This document shows, in pieces, positions 1 through 10,093 of a stretch of 64,000 bases of DNA (positions within the stretch are counted from its first letter, which is position 1; every line of letters starts with the position of its first letter). Position numbers and translations under genes: made by a program. The notes below the pieces were generated by a model, which searched no databases, had not been told where the DNA came from, and was given only the letters and a program-made list of their open reading frames with translations. The stretch is from Anaerococcus mediterraneensis (lineage in GTDB: Bacteria; Bacillota; Clostridia; Tissierellales; Peptoniphilaceae): positions 558,001-622,000 of the forward strand of contig NZ_LT635772.1 of NCBI RefSeq assembly GCF_900128415.1, read 5' to 3'.

Positions 1-3000
1 ATCATCTATTTCTAGTCCTAGAGCTTGCTTTAAATCTTCTTCGTCTACTGATACCAGATCGTCAAAACTTGACATCTTTATGGCTTCAGTCATATCTTTA
101 ATAGCTTGTGAGTTAGATATATCTTCTTCTACAAAAGATTCTGTTCTAATAGCTACATTGTCTACATACTGAGTCCATGTTTTTTCTTCCAAATTTACCT
201 CATATTGAATCGAATGCTTACCATCTGGCGTTTCTGTATAGGCAAGTCCTATATGGCTTAAATCAGGGTATAATTTCTCAAAGTCTTCATAGCTATTAGA
301 TTCTGAGAACTCGTAATTAGAATAATCAACTATCGCCCTCTTTAAATCTTCTAATAATGGTGATTGGTTTTCTAATTCTTCTACTTCTCCCATATCTAAA
401 AGTTTATTAATCTCAGCTAGTCTTAGTGTCTTATCCCTTAACTCATCTGCTTTTTCAAATGGTTTAGTTAATTCTACTTTGGCATTTTCTAAAGATTCTT
501 TATAGTTTTCAAGGTTTTGATTCAACCTTTCAAGTCTTGCAGGCATTTTTTCAATTGCATTATCAAGCCTTGTTATATTACCATCAGTAGAGTTTGAAAA
601 CTCTCCGAAGTATTCTGCTTTTCCTAGAAGTTTAAAGGTGTGAGCATTAGTCATAAAGTTATATGAAACTTGTAAGTCTAAATTTCTATATTTACCAATG
701 ACCTTGCTATCATTTATCTTTACCTTTTTTATTTCTTCTAATAGCTTCTCTCCGGCCTCTTTCTTATCCAAAATTTTATTTGTCCCAAGACTTATTGAAG
801 TGAATTTGCTATCTCCTTCTCCTAATTTCTCAACATTTGCAATATCTTCTTTAACTGCTTTTATTTCTATTTCAGTTTTTAAAATACTTTGAGGATAAAT
901 TTTATTTACCTTATCTTCAAGCTTGTATTTATTAGACTTGTAGTTTGCTTCAAGCATTTTTAGTTTTGTAACTTCGTTATCTAAGTCCATTTTTTCTTTA
1001 ATCAGAGGATTACCAGTAGCTAAAGCCTTAATTTCTGAATAAGATAGACTTGCTTCATCAACATCTTCTGCAACTCTTACTGGAGTTTTTGAAGTCATAA
1101 TTTGAGAAATGAATTTCTGTTTATTCTCTATTGTCTGCCACAAATAAGAATCAAAGGTATTTTCTGTTACATATCTAAAGATATTTACCTTATCATTTTC
1201 ATTACCTTGACGAACAATTCTACCACTTCTTTGCTCTAGGTCAGACGGTCTCCAAGGGACGTCTAAATCATGTAAGGCTATCAGTTTATTTTGTACATTT
1301 GTACCTGCACCCATTTTTTGAGTAGAACCTAATAATACTCTTACTTCTCCTCTTCTTACCTTAGAGAACAATTCATCTTTTTGCTTGTCTGTATCTGCTT
1401 CGTGGATAAAGGCTATTTCTTCTTTTGGTATTCCCATATTCACTAGCTTATTTCTAATATCATCATAGATATTAAATTCTCCATCTCCTTTTGGTGTGGA
1501 CATATCTGAAAATACTAATTGGGTCGATGAATTTTCTTTTGTCTTATCCCAGATCGAAAAGATGTTTTTAACACACACATTTACCTTTGAATTAGGATCA
1601 TCAGGAAGTAGTGGATTTATTAATCTTTGGTCAAGGGCAAGTTTTTTACCATCATTTGTAATCTTTAGCATATTGTCTTCTGTTGGCTCGACTTGATTAT
1701 TTCTAACTGCGTCAGCTCTTTCTGAAATAGCTTTTAATATTTCTTTTTGTTCCTCAGTAGGTTTTGTTTTAATAACTTCAAAATTTGCTTCTGGTACAGG
1801 CAAATTTAACATATCTGAAGTCTTTATATCTGCTACTTCTTTAAACATAGACATCAACTCTGGCAAGTTATAAAACTTTGAAAATCTTGTCTTTTGTCTA
1901 TATCCAGTGCCTTCTGGAGATAATTCAAAGGTGTTTTCTGTTTCTCCAAAAGTAGAAGCCCAAGCGTCAAAATGTTCTAATCCTCTTGCCTTTAAATCAT
2001 CATATTGAAGGTATCTTTGCATAGTATAAAGCTCTGTCATTGAATTTGATATTGGTGTACCAGTAGCAAATACAACTCCCTTTCCATCTGTCATTTCGTC
2101 CATATACCTACATTTCATATACATATCTGAAGACTTAAAGGCTTCACTTTGACCGATACCCGCAACATTTCTCATCTTTGTATGCAAGAATAAGTTTTTG
2201 TAATTATGAGCTTCGTCTATAAATAACTTATCTACTCCTAGCTCTTCAAAGGTTATAACATCATCTTTTTTAAAGTCATCATTTAGCTTTTCCAGTCTTA
2301 CCAAAAGCTTCTTCTTTGTCTTTTCTAGTTGTTTTACTGTGAAATTTTCTCCTCTATTTCTTTTGTTCTCATCAATAAAGGAAACTATATCATCTATTTG
2401 GTCTTGTATATGCCTTACCTGGTATTCCTTAGACATTGGTATTTTTTCAAATTGAGAGTGTCCTATGATGACTGCGTCATATTCTCCCGTTGCAATCCTA
2501 CCAATAAATCTTTTTCTATTTTTGGGTTGGAAGTCTTTTTTATCGGCCACCATAATGTTTGCTGACGGATATAACTGCATAAACTCTCTACCAATTTGAG
2601 TGGTTAAATGGTTAGGAACTACAAATAATGACTTACTTGCAAGTCCTAACTTTTTAGATTCCATAGCAGAAGCTACCATTTCAAAAGTTTTTCCTGCTCC
2701 TACTACATGGGCAAGTAGTGTATTTCCACCATAAAGAGTTCTTGCTATGGCGTTTTTTTGATGTTCTCGAAGACTGATTTCTGTATTCATTCCATCAAAA
2801 GTTAAGTTAGAACCATCAAATTCTCTATTTCTAATTGAATTGAATTTTTCATTATAAATTTTTTCTAACCTATATCTTCTATCAGGATCTTCAAATATCC
2901 AATTCTTAAATTCTTCTTTAATCAGCTCTTGCTTTTGACTTGCAAGCATAGTTTCTTTTTTGTTTAATACAGAAGTCTTAGACCCATCATCGTTTATTAC

Positions 3001-6000
3001 TTGGTCAAATACCTTTGTATCTTTTAGATTAAGAGCATTTTCAATTAACTTATAGGCATTTACTCTACTTGTACCATAAGTCATGTTAGCAAGGTCATTA
3101 GTTGAGTCAACACTTTTACCTTCAATATTCCATTCACTTGTGTGTGGTGAGAACCTAACACTTATATTCCACCTATCATAACCTGGCGTTTTTAAAAGAT
3201 TAAAAGTAAAGTCTTCTATATCTTTTTGAGGTATCCAAGTTGCTCCTAACCTTACATTTATATCAGAAGCAGTGAGTTCTTCAGGCATAACTTCTTGTAA
3301 TTTTTCTCTTTGATATTTGAGCTTGCCTAACTCGTTTAATAATGTATCTTTCTTTTCAGAAGGTGCTAAATCTATTACATTTTCAATTTCTCCGATATAT
3401 GAATTGAGGTAGCCAATTTTTTCTCTAATATTGCCACTTAAATACTCGTCAGCCGATACATATGAAAAATGAAAGGGATCATCATTGTTAAAGTTCTCAA
3501 AGGGCATTTTGTTATTTATTAAGTCTGTATCCTTAATATCTAAAAATATCTCGCCCTCAAGCTCACCAATTAAGGTGTCCCTATCTTTATTAGTGATAGA
3601 TTCCATATATTCAAAATCTACATATCCCTTTTGTGAAACTGATAAGACTAAGGCTTCAAGGGAAGTATCTACATGGTCTACTACCTTTGCCTTTGTTATT
3701 GTTCTTTTTGAAAATATATCACTCTTAGCTTTGAAATTATCCTCATCATCAAGTATTTCTATTGATGATACCAAAGGAAAGTTTGAGTCTTCCTTTAAGG
3801 CTCTAGTATTTGATAAGGAGTTAAGAAAGCCATGTTTCTTTGAAAAGTTATCATAAACTTCATTTAACTTTGCTTGTGACTCTTTTATTTCCTCGTCAGA
3901 AAAATCATCCTTTTGCTTTTCTATTACATCTTTTAAGGCATTCATTATATCAAGATAATCTTTTATTTTTTCTTTATTTTTATCTGATATATTCTGCTTA
4001 ATTAAGACTGAATTTTCTCTTAGATAGACATCTTCGTCAATAATGGTATAAGAAAAATTCTTAACATCATCTGTTGCTGGAAGACTTAATTCTTCATCTT
4101 CCAATAGCTCGACTTCTTCATATTTAGAATTTGAAGATATTTCCTTACTTGCAAGATCCATTAAATCTTTTAAATTTTCGTCTTCTTTTTCATCACAAGT
4201 GATTGTATTTCCAAATCTTCCAGATACTTCTTTCATATCCCCTAATACCATTTGAGGATTATCTACAAAGTATTTATTATAAGTCAAACCCTTTTTATCA
4301 GTTGCTAGATGAATCCAATCATCATCTCTTTCTATAACTGAATCTCTCTTCTTTAAGAAAATAATATCTGAAGTAACTTCTGTACCAGCAAGTCCCTTAA
4401 ATGTTGTATTAGGAAGCCTCATAGCTCCTAAAAACTCACATCTTGCATTAATATATTTTCTAACAGATTCATCTTTTTTATCCATAGTTCCAGATGATGT
4501 TATGAAGGCAATAATTCCTCCATTCCTAACCTTATCTATTGACTTTGCAAAAAAATAATCGTGAATCAGAAAGTTATTTCTGTTATATTCACGATCGTTA
4601 ACTTTAAAATCTCCAAAGGGAACATTTCCTATAACTAAATCGAAAAAGTTATTTGAGAAATTTGTTTCTTCAAAGCCTTTAATTTGAATATTGGATTCAG
4701 GATAAAGTTCTCTTGCTATTCTTCCGCTAAGACTATCTTTTTCTACTCCATAAACTTTAGAGCTTCGTATTTCACTTGGCATATTACCAATGAAATTACC
4801 AACTCCCGCAGATGGTTCAAGGATATTCCCGGTCTTAAAACCCATATCTGTTAGAGTCTTATATATTCCATCCATTACCTCTCTAGGTGTATAAAATGAT
4901 GTTAGAGTAGACTCTTTAGCATTTAAATACTCTTCATTTGTTAGATTTTCTTTTAAAATATTTCTTGCTTCAAGCCATTGACCTCCTTTTTCTTCATCAA
5001 AGACATCGGCAAGACCACCCCAACCTAAATAATCAGCAAGATAGGCTTGTTCATATTCTCTTGGACTCCTATTTTCATTTTCAAGTCTTTTTAGCATTTT
5101 AATAGCTTTTATATTTTTATCTAGTCTTTCTGATGGTGTTAGGTATTCTGAGTAGATATGATTTTTTAAGTCATAATTTCTAGCAAAACTTAGCCTTTCC
5201 TTATTAGGTTCATAGCCTAAATTCTTTAAATCTTCTTTACCCCTCAATAAGTTTTCGGCTGCTTGTCTTGGGACATTATACCTATCCATCACTTGGTCAA
5301 TTTCAGGATTGTGGTCATCAATAAAGCTTTCTTGTTCTACTAGTCTTTCAATTTGTTTTTCATGCTCAGATAATTTGTATATCTCATAGTTTCCACTATC
5401 TAAAAGGTCATCAATCTTTCTACTTTCTTCAAATGTTTCACCCTTATATAATTGAATTTCTTCTCCATTAACTTCTACTTTAGTTCCTGTTTCAATTAAG
5501 TTAATTCCATCAAAGATCTTCTCATCTTCTAAAATAAATTCCTTACCAACTTTTACTGCTAGTTTTTCTGGTGTTTGACTTAGATTTTCAAAGATTTCTT
5601 CAAGGTATGAATCGTTTCTATATGGAATTACTTCCGAACCCCTAATCATACCTCCCATATATTCCATATTATCTCTGATAGTGACAGTTTTAAGTCCTCC
5701 ATTTAGTTCATCAAAATCTGTAATGGTAAAGTCCTTATCTTTATATCTAACCTGATCTCCTATCTTAAATTTAGGCTCTATCTTTTCCTTAACTTCTTCT
5801 TGTAAAGAGTTTTCCTCACTTAGTGCAACTTGTTCTTCTAAATATGAAAATTCACGCTCATTTACTTCTTCACCATCACCAAGGTCAATCCTATAATGCT
5901 CGACAACTTCGCCGTCTACATAGTGATCAAAATAGAATTTGAAATATCCGATATAATCATCAGTCATTTCTCCAAATTCATTTTCTCCAAGAGTTTGATT

Positions 6001-7413
6001 ATGGTCTTTAACATCAATATCCTTTTGTCTTAGGACATTAATTAAATCTTTAGTTACTATCTGCCCACTATAATCGGGAACTAATTCGTGGTTTTCATTA
6101 AATTCTACAATCCAGTAATCTTTTCTATTTTCAGTGTTTTTGTCATCAAAAAAAGAAGCTTCATCAGCTTCCTTTTCTTGGCTTATTTCATTTTCTAAGC
6201 TTCCACGTATTCCTTGATTGCCATTTTCTTCACTGTTGCCATCAAGTTGTTCATCTGTCCTTGGTATTCCTCTGGATTCTCTCTCATCATCTTCTCTGTC
6301 AATCCTTGTGCTTTCATCATCTTGACTTTCTCTCTCTTGATATAGTCCACTGCCTGAGTCTGAATTTCCTTCAGGTGGTTCAAAAGTGTTTTCTCCTCGT
6401 ACATTTTCTGAAGTTTTTTCCAGTTCTCCATGTCCTCGCTCCCTACCAGGTAAGACAGTCTTAGAACTGCGTATGTTGGATTCGGAAATCTCTCCATAAA
6501 TTCCAGATCCTTCTCCATCATGTCCAAGGTTTTCTCTTCGATCTTCATCGCTATTTCCTCTGTCGCTTCCATCTGTGAAAACTCGTCCATCTCTACTTCT
6601 TGACCTATCATCTCGTCTATATAAATCATCTTGACCTCCTCTATCTTCGTTTATATTTTCTATATCTCTATTATAGTCGGCAGCGGCCCTTTCTGTCAGC
6701 AGCCTAGCACGATCTATTTCCTTAGATTTTTCTATTGTGCTATCTATAATATCTTCGCTAACCCTTGATATTACAAGACCTATCTGCTCTAAAGAAATTG
6801 TATTAATCCTAGAAAAATTATTTTTTAAAATTTCTATATCCATAGGATAGACTGTATTAAACCTATTAGCTACTGCATAGGATATTGAGTCTCTCATAAA
6901 CTTTTCAAAACTAAGTCTATCCTCTATATCTATCCTTAAATCAGCAAGAGCCAAATTAATATATTCATCTCCATAAATTCGACTTAAAGAAAATATATTT
7001 TCATTAAGTGAATCACTAGCTTCAAATGAAGAATCTCTTATTATTTCTTTTAAAGCCTCCTTATGGTTTTCGTGGTCAAACTGCCATAAGCTAACCTCAT
7101 TAATATTCCTATCCATTGATGTGGTTTGACTAATATCAAAAATGTATGAAATTCTTTGATTTACATCACTTCCAACTAAAATTGGAATACCCTTTTGACC
7201 TCTCATAACAACTCTTCCAAAATATTTTTTCCACATATCAAAAGTCGCACAAGCTCTAGCTTCAGGTTCTTTGTTATATATACTTAACTGGCTAGAAAAA
7301 TCATATTTCTGATTATTGCCTATAACTTTTAAGAGTTTTAAATATTCTTTTTCATCTTGCAAAACTTCATACTTTATTGCTTCTTGTATATTCTTAAAAT
7401 CGTTTACTTGCAT
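1..7413 (-). CDS. Giant N6-adenine methylase / SNF2-type helicase protein of the ICE, C-terminus cut by the window edge
   Basis: A single open frame of 2471 codons runs from an ATG at 7413 off the left edge. It is preceded by GGAGGT lying in the last codons of the cytosine methyltransferase gene. Residues 1-80 resemble an ArdC-like N-terminal domain ([13 protein letters not shown]). Residues about 250-420 are a charged R/G/S/D/E-rich linker. An adenine methylase fold follows near residues 790-1000 ([19 protein letters not shown], and NVPFG as the NPPY-type motif). A superfamily 2 helicase spans about 1550-2150 (Walker A HVVGAGKT near 1567, DEAHNYKN near 1732, GAGTNVQ and [11 protein letters not shown]). 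Coiled-coil sequence ends the visible part. Such megaproteins are standard in Tn1549-like ICEs; roles in protection of incoming DNA or in replication are inferred. A second gene is encoded within the linker in another frame. Confidence 0.92.
6195..6629 (-). CDS. TnpV-like small protein encoded in an overlapping frame inside the helicase gene
   Basis: A 144-residue frame lies entirely inside the helicase gene on the same strand but in another frame. It has its own Shine-Dalgarno: AGGAGG at 6640-6635, five bases before the ATG at 6629. The C-terminal half ([16 protein letters not shown], then [16 protein letters not shown] and [13 protein letters not shown]) follows the TnpV family pattern of a helical protein with LxxYLxxIDxQAxE, GVTExLKxxxQMxWVxxMNxIR and a final nElI-like segment. 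The host frame here reads only low-complexity R/G/D/S/E linker, and the region is less AT-rich than its flanks. Seen: ORF, SD and family-like pattern. Inferred: that it is translated. TnpV has no firmly known function; it is usually annotated as transposon-encoded. Confidence 0.72.
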
Positions 7414-7414
7414 T

Positions 7415-8365
7415 TTATACCTCCATTCTATGAATTTCTTTTATAATCGCCATTAAAATATTAACCACAATAGAATTGCCGGCCTGCTTATATAGTTTAC
7501 TTGAGGTACAATTCTTTCTTCTTGGATGTACTTCTTCTAGTTTGTCTATATCTCTATCATCAAAACCCATGAGTCTTAGACATTCTCTTTCTGTTAAATA
7601 CCTATATTTACCATTTCCAATATCTATTATTCCAGAATTGGGTACTCTCATCTGTTTTGTAGAAATAGTATAAGAAAAATCTTTAATCACTTTTAGTCGC
7701 CCTTTAAAACTATTATCTATGCCTTTATTTAAAAATTTCAGCATATAAGGTTGAGTCATGGTATAAAGTTCACTTACATTCTTTTCTAAAAATTCACTTA
7801 GTGGTCTTGTTTCTTTACTCTCCAATTTATTAAAAGAAAAGTTATTTGATCCGAGATATGAAACAACAAATATCCTTTCTCTTTTTTGAGGTATCCCAAA
7901 GTCCATTGCATTTAAGATTTCATATTTGCTTTCATATCCAAGGTTTTCTAACTCTTTTAGATAAATAAAAAAGGAGTCCCTCATATTTCTATCAAGGACT
8001 CCCTTTACATTTTCCCAAATTATCCATTTAGGTTTTTCTTTCATTTCTTTAATTATTCTAATTGTTTCAAATAGTAAGCTTGATCTAGTTCCTGAATTCT
8101 TTACTCCTCCTTGCTTTTTTCCTATTCTTGAAAAGTCTTGGCAAGGACTTCCATGCATAATTAAGTCTATCTTCTCATTAGGAGCTTTATATCCTACTAC
8201 TGATTTTGGCTTATAACTTTCTCCATAAAGTGCGTTGTATGATTTAACACAAGCCTTATCTATTTCTACATAATCAACAACTTCATAAGGTATCTTTAAA
8301 TTAATAAAAGCCTTTCTAATAGCACCTATGCCACCGAAAAGCTCCAATATTTTTACCTTATTCAT
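7415..8365 (-). CDS. dcm: C5-cytosine DNA methyltransferase
   Basis: 316 residues, the usual size for a single-chain m5C methyltransferase. The N-terminus reads [13 protein letters not shown] (SAM-binding motif I). The catalytic loop [16 protein letters not shown] has the nucleophilic Cys near residue 75. ENVKGVL is motif VI, and QAGNSIVV near the C-terminus is motif X. The variable region between about residues 190 and 270 would set the target. It overlaps the topoisomerase gene by 8 bases and ends 2 bases before the helicase start, so the three genes are probably translationally coupled. In ICEs an orphan methylase without a partner endonuclease is generally read as protection against host restriction; that role is inferred. 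No restriction enzyme gene is adjacent. Confidence 0.93.
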
Positions 8366-10079
8366 TTAGATTATTCTTGTACCTATCTACAAGCTCCCTT
8401 ATACTATCTTCTATTTCTCTTAAAAAGTCTTCTTTATCTACTTCGCCAGAGCTAATCTTTGAAAGTTTCATTTCCCATTCAGATGTTGTTTTAGCCGACT
8501 TGAACTTATCCTCTACAATCGATACAAGTCTATTGCCTTTTTCTGTTACAAGTAAATTTTTCTTATCTCTTCTTATAAGATCCTTATGGATAAGATTTTC
8601 AATAATTCCTGCTCTTGTTGCTGGCGTTCCTAAGCCTTTTCTTTCAACTTCTATATCTTTATCCAAGGATTCTACTCCTGCATTCTCCATGGCCTTTAAA
8701 AGTGTATCTTCATTATAATGGCTTGGAGCTTTTGTAAATTTCTCAGATATATTTTTAGAAGTTAGCTTAATTTTATCTCCAGTCTTTACATCTGGTAATT
8801 CATTTTCTTGTCTTTGTTTTCCATAAGTCTTTAGATACTTGGTATAACCTTCATCGATTATAGTCTTGCCACTTGCATTGAAGTTAAATTTATCATATTC
8901 ATATCTGATTTTTCTACTAGATTCCTTTAAGTTATCCGAACATGAAACAAGTAATTTATTCTTAATTAGATTATAAATTTTACTTTCTTTATCAGATAAA
9001 TCTTTGTCTTTTCCAATACCTGATATAGTAGGAATAATTGCATAGTGGTCTGTAACCTTAGATGAATTAAAAATAGACTTAAAGTTTGATTCGTTGATTT
9101 TAAAATCATCTTCAAGCCCTTCTAATAATTCTTTCATAGTATTAACCATATCATCGGTTAAATACCTACTATCCGTTCTTGGATATGTGATTAGCTTCTT
9201 CTCGTACAAGCTTTGTGCTAGATTTAAAGTGTTATTTGCTGAATATCCAAAATATTTATTCGCTTCTCTTTGCAAGGTAGTGAGGTCATAAGGCTTATCT
9301 GGTTTTGTGCTTATTTCTTTATCTTCCACCTCTGTAATAACTATTTCATCTTCTAGTAGATTTAATAGTTGTTCAGCAACTTCAATTTTATCAATCCTAT
9401 CTGATACAAGTTTCAATCCTTTATAAGATAGGTCAACTGTATAATATTTTTGCTTCTTAAATAGGTTTATTTCGCTATCCCTTTTAGCTATTAAATATAG
9501 GGTTGGTGTTTGTACTCTACCAACTGAATATGTTTCCTTGTAAATGCAAGAATAAAGTCTACTTAAATTCATTCCCAACAGCCAATCTGCAATTGCTCTT
9601 GCACTTGCTGATCTATATAAGTCTTCAAAGTTTTCTCCATCTTTAAGATTTCTAAAGCCATCTTCAATAGCTTTGTTTTCCATTGAAGATATCCAAAGTC
9701 TTTGAATTTTCTTCTTACATTTAGCTTGATTGTATACAAGCCTAAAAATAAGTTCTCCCTCTCTTCCAGCATCACAAGCATTTATAACTGTGTCGATGTT
9801 CTTATCGTTTAAAAGTTTCTTTAAAATTCCATATTGTTTTTTAGTGCTTTTAGATACTTCATAAATATATTCTTCTGGGATTATAGGAAGATTTTCTATT
9901 GTCCATTTTTTCCATTTTTCGTCTATCTTATCTGGACTTGCCATTTGAATTAAATGACCTACACACCATGAAACAATGTATCCATTCCCCTCATAATATC
10001 CGTTTTTTCTTGTTCTTGCTCCAATTACTTTTGCAATTGTAACTGCTACACTTGGCTTTTCTGCTATTACTAATTTCAT
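8358..10079 (-). CDS. topB: DNA topoisomerase III, type IA
   Basis: 573 residues starting at the ATG at 10079. An upstream in-frame ATG at 10091 is unlikely to be used because GGAGGT occupies its next codons and is well spaced for the 10079 ATG. The N-terminal Toprim domain begins KLVIAEKPSVAVTIA, with DAGREGELIFR near residue 100. The catalytic tyrosine lies in ITYPRTDSRYL near residue 300. The late GTPATRAGIIENL motif is present. The protein ends soon after the core and lacks the long Gly- or zinc-rich tail of many chromosomal TopB proteins. It relaxes or decatenates DNA by single-strand passage; in Tn1549/CTn elements it accompanies the transfer genes and is thought to help process transferred DNA. 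A terminator-like hairpin lies just upstream of its start. Confidence 0.95.
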   Translation of the reverse strand: MKLVIAEKPSVAVTIAKVIGARTRKNGYYEGNGYIVSWCVGHLIQMASPDKIDEKWKKWTIENLPIIPEEYIYEVSKSTKKQYGILKKLLNDKNIDTVINACDAGREGELIFRLVYNQAKCKKKIQRLWISSMENKAIEDGFRNLKDGENFEDLYRSASARAIADWLLGMNLSRLYSCIYKETYSVGRVQTPTLYLIAKRDSEINLFKKQKYYTVDLSYKGLKLVSDRIDKIEVAEQLLNLLEDEIVITEVEDKEISTKPDKPYDLTTLQREANKYFGYSANNTLNLAQSLYEKKLITYPRTDSRYLTDDMVNTMKELLEGLEDDFKINESNFKSIFNSSKVTDHYAIIPTISGIGKDKDLSDKESKIYNLIKNKLLVSCSDNLKESSRKIRYEYDKFNFNASGKTIIDEGYTKYLKTYGKQRQENELPDVKTGDKIKLTSKNISEKFTKAPSHYNEDTLLKAMENAGVESLDKDIEVERKGLGTPATRAGIIENLIHKDLIRRDKKNLLVTEKGNRLVSIVEDKFKSAKTTSEWEMKLSKISSGEVDKEDFLREIEDSIRELVDRYKNNLNE

Positions 10080-10093
10080 TAATACCTCCATAA

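Follow-up and report, generated by a model that had tools for sequence, protein, structure and literature searches.

In bacteria, genes nested within others are regarded as rare anomalies, and an arrangement in which the inner gene lies on the same strand as the outer one and out of frame with it is exemplified by comS within srfA of Bacillus subtilis (both statements as given in passages of PMC12350097). The locus described here is similar to comS/srfA in that a small gene is placed inside a larger one, on the same strand and in another frame, the comparison being one of arrangement and not of sequence. Unlike comS/srfA, however, the tnpV/helicase pair recurs across a class and a phylum, belongs to a mobile-element family and involves a probably disordered linker.

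The components of the pair have been met separately. The name TnpV is tied to Tn4451, and a role of the protein in excision was postulated by homology with lambda Xis (according to part of PMC3158075), while in Roseburia tnpV is found immediately upstream of tet(O) (in a portion of PMC11913394). The outer gene is reminiscent of the polyvalent proteins of T4SS elements, such as the Tn1549-like ones, which often have an N-terminal ArdC-N domain (as stated in sections of PMC5512222); our host protein likewise combines an ArdC-like N-terminal fold with methylase-like and helicase parts. The words TnpV, "overlapping" and "disordered" have zero occurrences in the text of PMC5512222. The snf2 gene is treated in another report (PMC9815147) as a site into which elements with a TnpV gene of their own integrate, and a nested TnpV gene is not noted in the excerpts of that report. 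TnpV, same-strand nested genes and the polyvalent proteins of ICEs are already known; a TnpV gene nested in a helicase gene was not found described in the partly accessible texts of the open-licence PMC literature, which is not proof of absence.

The nested frame and its helicase host

The window, that is, the whole stretch of 64,000 nucleotides of Anaerococcus mediterraneensis DNA that was analysed (positions 558,001 to 622,000 of contig NZ_LT635772.1), holds 2471 residues of the host protein, whose open frame counts 2556 codons in the whole genome. The tnpV-like ORF is fully contained in this gene, on the same strand and in its +1 frame, where it spans host residues 262–407 (Table 1). The initial annotation had described a 144-codon ORF with an AGGAGG five bases ahead of its ATG, lying inside the helicase gene on the same strand and in a shifted frame, and had read the host frame across it as an R/G/S/D/E-rich linker. 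Both descriptions were confirmed on the sequence, the five residues making up 67% of the host frame there versus 39% of the rest of its first 700 residues. In its +1 frame the helicase gene stays open for at most 151 codons; shuffling the host synonymously gave a run of this length in 5 of 2000 trials, and shuffling its codon order in 0 of 2000. Since the synonymous shuffles do reach it, the length of the ORF alone is only moderately unusual (about 0.25%), and the case therefore rests on homology, substitution pattern and conserved position.

Table 1. Features of the nested gene, its host and the adjoining genes in the window
Feature	Positions	Strand	Remarks
Host gene, ICE methylase/SNF2-helicase protein	1..7413	-	ORF; continues past the low end of the window
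Host N-terminal domain, ArdC-like fold, residues 4-232	6718..7404	-	no HExxH
Host linker, residues 258-546, probably disordered	5776..6642	-	low AF2 confidence; about the first half overlaps tnpV
Host methylase-like segment, Eco57I, residues 912-988	4450..4680	-	profile match
Host helicase region, ResIII to Helicase_C, residues 1546-2070	1204..2778	-	profile match
Nested tnpV-like gene	6195..6629	-	ATG start, 144 codons, stop within the interval; PF14198 match
AGGAGG Shine-Dalgarno sequence	6635..6640	-	read from the sequence; 5-nt spacer (TCAAG) to the ATG
Upstream gene, DNA (cytosine-5-)-methyltransferase	7415..8365	-	TIGR00675 E 5e-58; order identical in pAPRE01
Upstream gene, DNA topoisomerase III	8358..10091	-	NF005829 above cut-off; order identical in pAPRE01

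The window ORF matches the TnpV profile PF14198 with E 1.1e-5 and 25.8 bits over residues 52–141, the first 51 residues giving no match to the model, and it is the sole TnpV match at E ≤0.001 across its genome. The score lies below the gathering cut-off of the family (27 bits), and by score the ORF is not a member. In an alignment of 13 nested members, 11 match PF14198 (best E 6e-44), with identities to the window ORF running from 73% down to 21%; in addition, several near-identical proteins bear the NCBI name "TnpV protein" among the 120 matches listed of 282. Because these relatives form a bridge to accepted TnpV proteins and the NCBI naming agrees, the protein family is an already known one, and the nesting is the part that was not found described. 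As judged from these alignments, the window ORF is a divergent relative of TnpV, related to accepted members without being a member by the cut-off. The family match claimed in the initial annotation holds as a sequence relationship, resting on the E value and the bridging relatives, and not at the Pfam threshold.

The N-terminal domain of the host has an ArdC-like fold, at 8% identity and an rmsd of 5.1 to ArdC of plasmid R388 (6i89), and none of its 11 aligned members is recognised by any Pfam family. In one respect the host departs from ArdC: the HExxH metallopeptidase motif, which is an ArdC trait, is absent from the 2471 host residues within the window. The genes for topoisomerase III, the C5 methylase and the helicase follow one another in the window as they do in pAPRE01, a conjugative plasmid of Anaerococcus prevotii, in which a 98.6% identical TnpV lies beneath a CDS annotated as "helicase-related protein". 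By this gene order and this copy, the window TnpV is of a kind carried on mobile elements. The PLSDB gene table of pAPRE01, which is incomplete, has an entry for the helicase only and none for TnpV, and illustrates how a conserved gene can be missing from annotation.

Recurrence of the nesting and the start of the inner frame

The search for close relatives returned 48 loci, 47 of them at 92–99% identity and one (L049) at 68%. At all but one of the 48 loci the ORF occupies the same frame relation within the host frame, several of the hosts running off the contig. The exception, from Anaerococcus octavius (L047, 7221–8408), has suffered a deletion that fuses the host N-terminal domain and the TnpV frame into 396 codons. 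The leftover helicase frame of this allele forms a separate ORF, and an identical allele is present at L071. Among the genomes of relatives 26 of 61 gave a match, and the diverged loci L072–L074, L078 and L079 (30–42% identity by tblastn) keep the arrangement.

At the level of the class, an 11-row profile built on the N-terminal domain of the host matched in 74 of 291 genomes at E 1e-10. The examination covered 81 of the 115 profile rows (to E 3e-30), the other 34 being weaker (E at least 4e-23) and mostly short. TnpV was nested in the +1 frame in 73 of these 81 host matches, in 8 of which the host frame stops early, after 355–1094 codons. Two matches have a partial overlap only (L133, with a broken host frame, and L151, at a contig end), one has TnpV apart in a broken host (L192), and five are without TnpV, namely L177, L179, L183 and L187, which are short, broken or at a contig end, and L184, which is full length. 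In the phylum sample of 299 genomes the host was found in 13, and 17 of the 18 new loci are nested, the remaining one being a fragment. The nested frame is +1 in every nested case of both samples, and about 90 distinct nested genes (88–95) share this one frame relation and one position at about 22% TnpV identity in most pairs. With the nesting present at these frequencies in both samples, the proposal of the initial annotation that a small gene had been captured in, or had evolved within, the linker has to be given up as far as a local capture is concerned.

More distant hosts extend this picture. In L232, found through a search with the methylase region, a remote TnpV (E 1e-5) occupies the same place and frame within an R/G/D/E-rich linker. 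L233 (genome G487) and L234 (genome G135; the same locus as L184) contain no nested TnpV, and the R/G/D/E linker, as judged by eye, is also absent from them; these two hosts may serve as useful outgroups toward dating the nesting. At one locus (L156) two TnpV copies are present, one of them nested in a shortened host ORF of 392 codons and the other outside it.

Of 88 distinct nested genes, 84 have a Shine-Dalgarno match of at least 5 bases ahead of their best candidate start, against 121 of 3425 (3.5%) background out-of-frame ATGs of the hosts, the former figure being inflated because the best of several candidate starts was taken and a spacer of 3–12 nt was allowed. The best candidate start is ATG in 86 of the 88. 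The TnpV frame opens just 0–2 codons ahead of the chosen start in 17 of the 88 nested genes, which therefore leave little room for frameshifting.

We consider it very probable, on the evidence of sequence comparison, that the ICE helicase gene harbours in its +1 frame a real, nested and separately translated protein-coding gene, tnpV. Ribosomes translating the helicase mRNA would initiate internally at 6629 to give a helical TnpV of 144 residues, and those arriving from the host start would decode this DNA as a disordered R/G/D/E linker leading from the ArdC-like N-terminal domain to the methylase-helicase part. The host frame would be held merely open, hydrophilic and acidic, and, since the linker tolerates much change, it would be TnpV that dictates the DNA sequence. 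One message would in this way provide two proteins, with TnpV tied to the ArdC-like module.

The same frame could also be thought of as the tail of a programmed +1 frameshift near the AGGAGG, by which a fusion of the ArdC-like domain and TnpV would be made. The uniform +1 relation of all nested cases, the SD-like sequence at the junction and the natural deletion allele of L047 and L071, which encodes such a 396-codon fusion, are what could be expected of it. They have to be set, however, against the 17 of 88 frames that open 0–2 codons before the start, against the ATG found at 86 of the 88 starts with an SD match 3–12 nt ahead in 84, and against the existence of standalone TnpV genes outside the host, and frameshifting appears to us an improbable explanation.

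Substitutions in the two frames and the composition of the linker

Substitutions were counted by the Fitch method on a tree of 47 sequences (the window and 46 close loci, without the deletion allele L047 and the 68% identical L049), 15 nt being trimmed off either end of the overlap; such counts are blind to recombination, and sequences inside one clade are non-independent. The changes at host codon positions 1/2/3 amount to 122/126/609 upstream of the overlap, 223/59/70 within it and 296/189/1201 downstream, the peak in the overlap being shifted to the first position of host codons, which coincides with the third of TnpV codons (chi2 437, P ~1e-95). In the TnpV frame the 352 substitutions of the overlap comprise 200 synonymous and 152 nonsynonymous changes and 0 stops (neutral shares 0.227, 0.728 and 0.045), and in the host frame 50, 302 and 0 (neutral shares 0.263, 0.695 and 0.041). 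Taken as simple ratios, these give a rough dN/dS of about 0.24 for TnpV, 2.3 for the host in the overlap and 0.16–0.17 for the host elsewhere; the value of 2.3 is not taken as positive selection, because most changes that are silent in the host hit the second position of TnpV codons and are eliminated. The pattern was replicated in 22 pairs from other clades with no locus reused, where the differences at TnpV positions 1/2/3 of the overlap are 258/203/466 and those in the host N-terminal domain are 394/258/1249. At the level of these counts the TnpV frame is under purifying selection. The initial annotation had named such selection as the support to look for, and it was seen both in the 47 close sequences and in the 22 locus-disjoint pairs; stops in the TnpV frame beside an intact helicase, named there as speaking against the gene, occur in none of the 47.

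No stop-making change was observed in the overlap versus 14.4 expected for the host frame (Poisson P ~5e-7) and about 16 for the TnpV frame; in the flanks of the overlap the host frame gained 1 and 9 of them. The missing stops indicate that the host frame is maintained across the overlap. The host frame acquires a stop wherever T is the last base of a TnpV codon and AA, AG or GA follows, and T was found before these dinucleotides in 0 of 3463 cases in nested genes versus 170 of 971 in other TnpV genes (over 81 nested ORFs and 26 others, with some loci represented twice). When TnpV was recoded with host codon usage (93 genes), the average share of trials with an open host frame was 0.07%. By all these measures the host frame is kept open across tnpV.

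It might still be supposed that TnpV is a separate gene, that the helicase is really two genes and that the host frame runs open across TnpV by accident, given that the host-frame residues of the overlap show weaker conservation than TnpV and are freely replaced (302 nonsynonymous versus 50 synonymous changes). But an accidentally open frame is hard to reconcile with the lack of host-frame stops among 352 changes, with the avoidance of stop-making contexts in nested genes alone and with the rarity of open host frames over recoded TnpV, and we regard this division of the helicase as very improbable. That the ORF is fortuitous, its frame being kept open by the composition of an R/G/D/E-rich, low-constraint linker, has next to no chance of being correct, for although composition does help (the 5 of 2000 synonymous shuffles reaching 151 open codons), the codon-position pattern and the purifying selection in the TnpV frame contradict it, as do the homology to free TnpV genes, the conserved SD and the lack of the linker in two hosts that are without TnpV.

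With separate translation of a nested tnpV as the preferred reading, the peculiar composition of the host linker can be considered. Recoding of TnpV with stops avoided yields an R-rich linker with fractions of 0.124 for D+E, 0.212 for hydrophobic residues and 0.017 for Cys; the corresponding fractions in real linkers, which are also richer in G than the recoded ones, are 0.215, 0.139 and 0.000. The comparison of the two compositions suggests that TnpV dictates part of the linker's composition and that another part reflects a shift to a soluble acidic chain. The linker frame, too, seems to be tuned, and part of the shift may be explicable if T is generally avoided as the third base of TnpV codons. 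The view that the odd composition of the linker is a by-product of the overlapping code, advanced at the outset, accounts for its richness in R, which recoding reproduces, and fails to account for its being more acidic, G-rich, less hydrophobic and nearly Cys-free.

The AF2 model of TnpV is helical, with a mean pLDDT of 88.5 and a pTM of 0.78. In the host linker pLDDT is below 50 throughout, with block means of about 22–33 over residues 261–540, the alignment used having been shallow and gappy (10 rows), so that the low confidence may reflect this as well as disorder; the low-confidence stretch extends to residue 546, far beyond tnpV. As far as the models go, the shared DNA probably encodes a confidently helical TnpV in one frame and a disordered linker in the other. 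The deep conservation of the pair makes it a natural laboratory for the study of two proteins sharing DNA, with one frame fixed and the other open, acidic and hydrophilic.

Probable co-inheritance, free copies and possible roles of TnpV

Over 90 pairs, TnpV distances correlate with those of the host N-terminal domain with rho 0.87 and with those of the 300-residue stretch that follows the linker, a poorly aligned region, with rho 0.38; the value for the host N-terminal against the host C-terminal part is 0.46. Across divergence bins TnpV and the host N-terminal domain are conserved to about the same degree, and the linker frame to a lesser one (0.46, 0.48 and 0.29 in one example). We read the tracking of the ArdC-like domain by TnpV as the inheritance of an ArdC-like/TnpV module as a unit. 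A tree of 159 TnpV rows, which is unrooted, built on 135 columns and has long branches, shows 7 changes between the nested and the free state, 4 of them forced by starred branches, against a mean of 50 after shuffling; the tree of the N-terminal domain including hosts without TnpV shows 2 changes.

PF14198 matches are present in 106 of the 291 class genomes. The 160 distinct TnpV ORFs comprise 95 nested ones, all in this helicase host family, 64 non-nested ones and 1 with a short open frame; the ratio of nested to free copies is not an estimate, because 40 regions were chosen, from the PF14198 matches listed, as lacking an adjoining host match and so as likely free. Of the 64, 61 come from PF14198 loci, and the other three (L133, L156 and L192) are located within a broken host or next to one. 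All 64 have 1–18 stops in the host-equivalent frame, and on neither strand is any of them enclosed by another ORF of 220 or more aa, whereas the window gene lies wholly inside the helicase gene. Free tnpV copies near relaxase, Mob_Pre or serine recombinase genes were seen at L243, L245, L256, L261, L265 and L274.

The nesting provides a handle on TnpV and its putative function. Our guess, offered with considerable doubt, is that TnpV could be an accessory factor that processes or protects element DNA in excision and transfer together with the host protein. The alternative, in which TnpV is an Xis-like excision factor as postulated for Tn4451 and the nesting merely couples excision to helicase expression, seems unlikely to us. 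It has in its favour the Tn4451 postulate itself (in the part of PMC3158075 cited above) and a free copy, L243, that lies beside a serine recombinase; it fits less well with the co-variation of the nested gene and the host ArdC-like domain and with the surroundings of the free copies. There, 20 hand-picked neighbour proteins include 3 Mob_Pre proteins and 2 relaxases against 1 serine recombinase and 1 rve integrase, the remaining 13 being unrelated or unnamed, and mobility genes make up 6 of 10 in one batch and 1 of 10 in the other. With neighbours as mixed as these, the neighbourhood does not single out excision.

Returning to TnpV as an accessory of the host protein, a broader proposal may be put forward tentatively, at somewhat less than an even chance. 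The long disordered linker of a family of conjugation proteins would be the shadow of a near-obligate nested gene, and TnpV and the ArdC-like domain would form an ancient co-inherited transfer module of Gram-positive mobile elements, its two products being made by internal initiation from one message; the free TnpV copies of mobilizable elements would use the same machinery.

At one further locus (L090) a free tnpV is situated upstream of a gene for an EF-Tu-type GTPase, which is perhaps a tetracycline ribosomal-protection gene.
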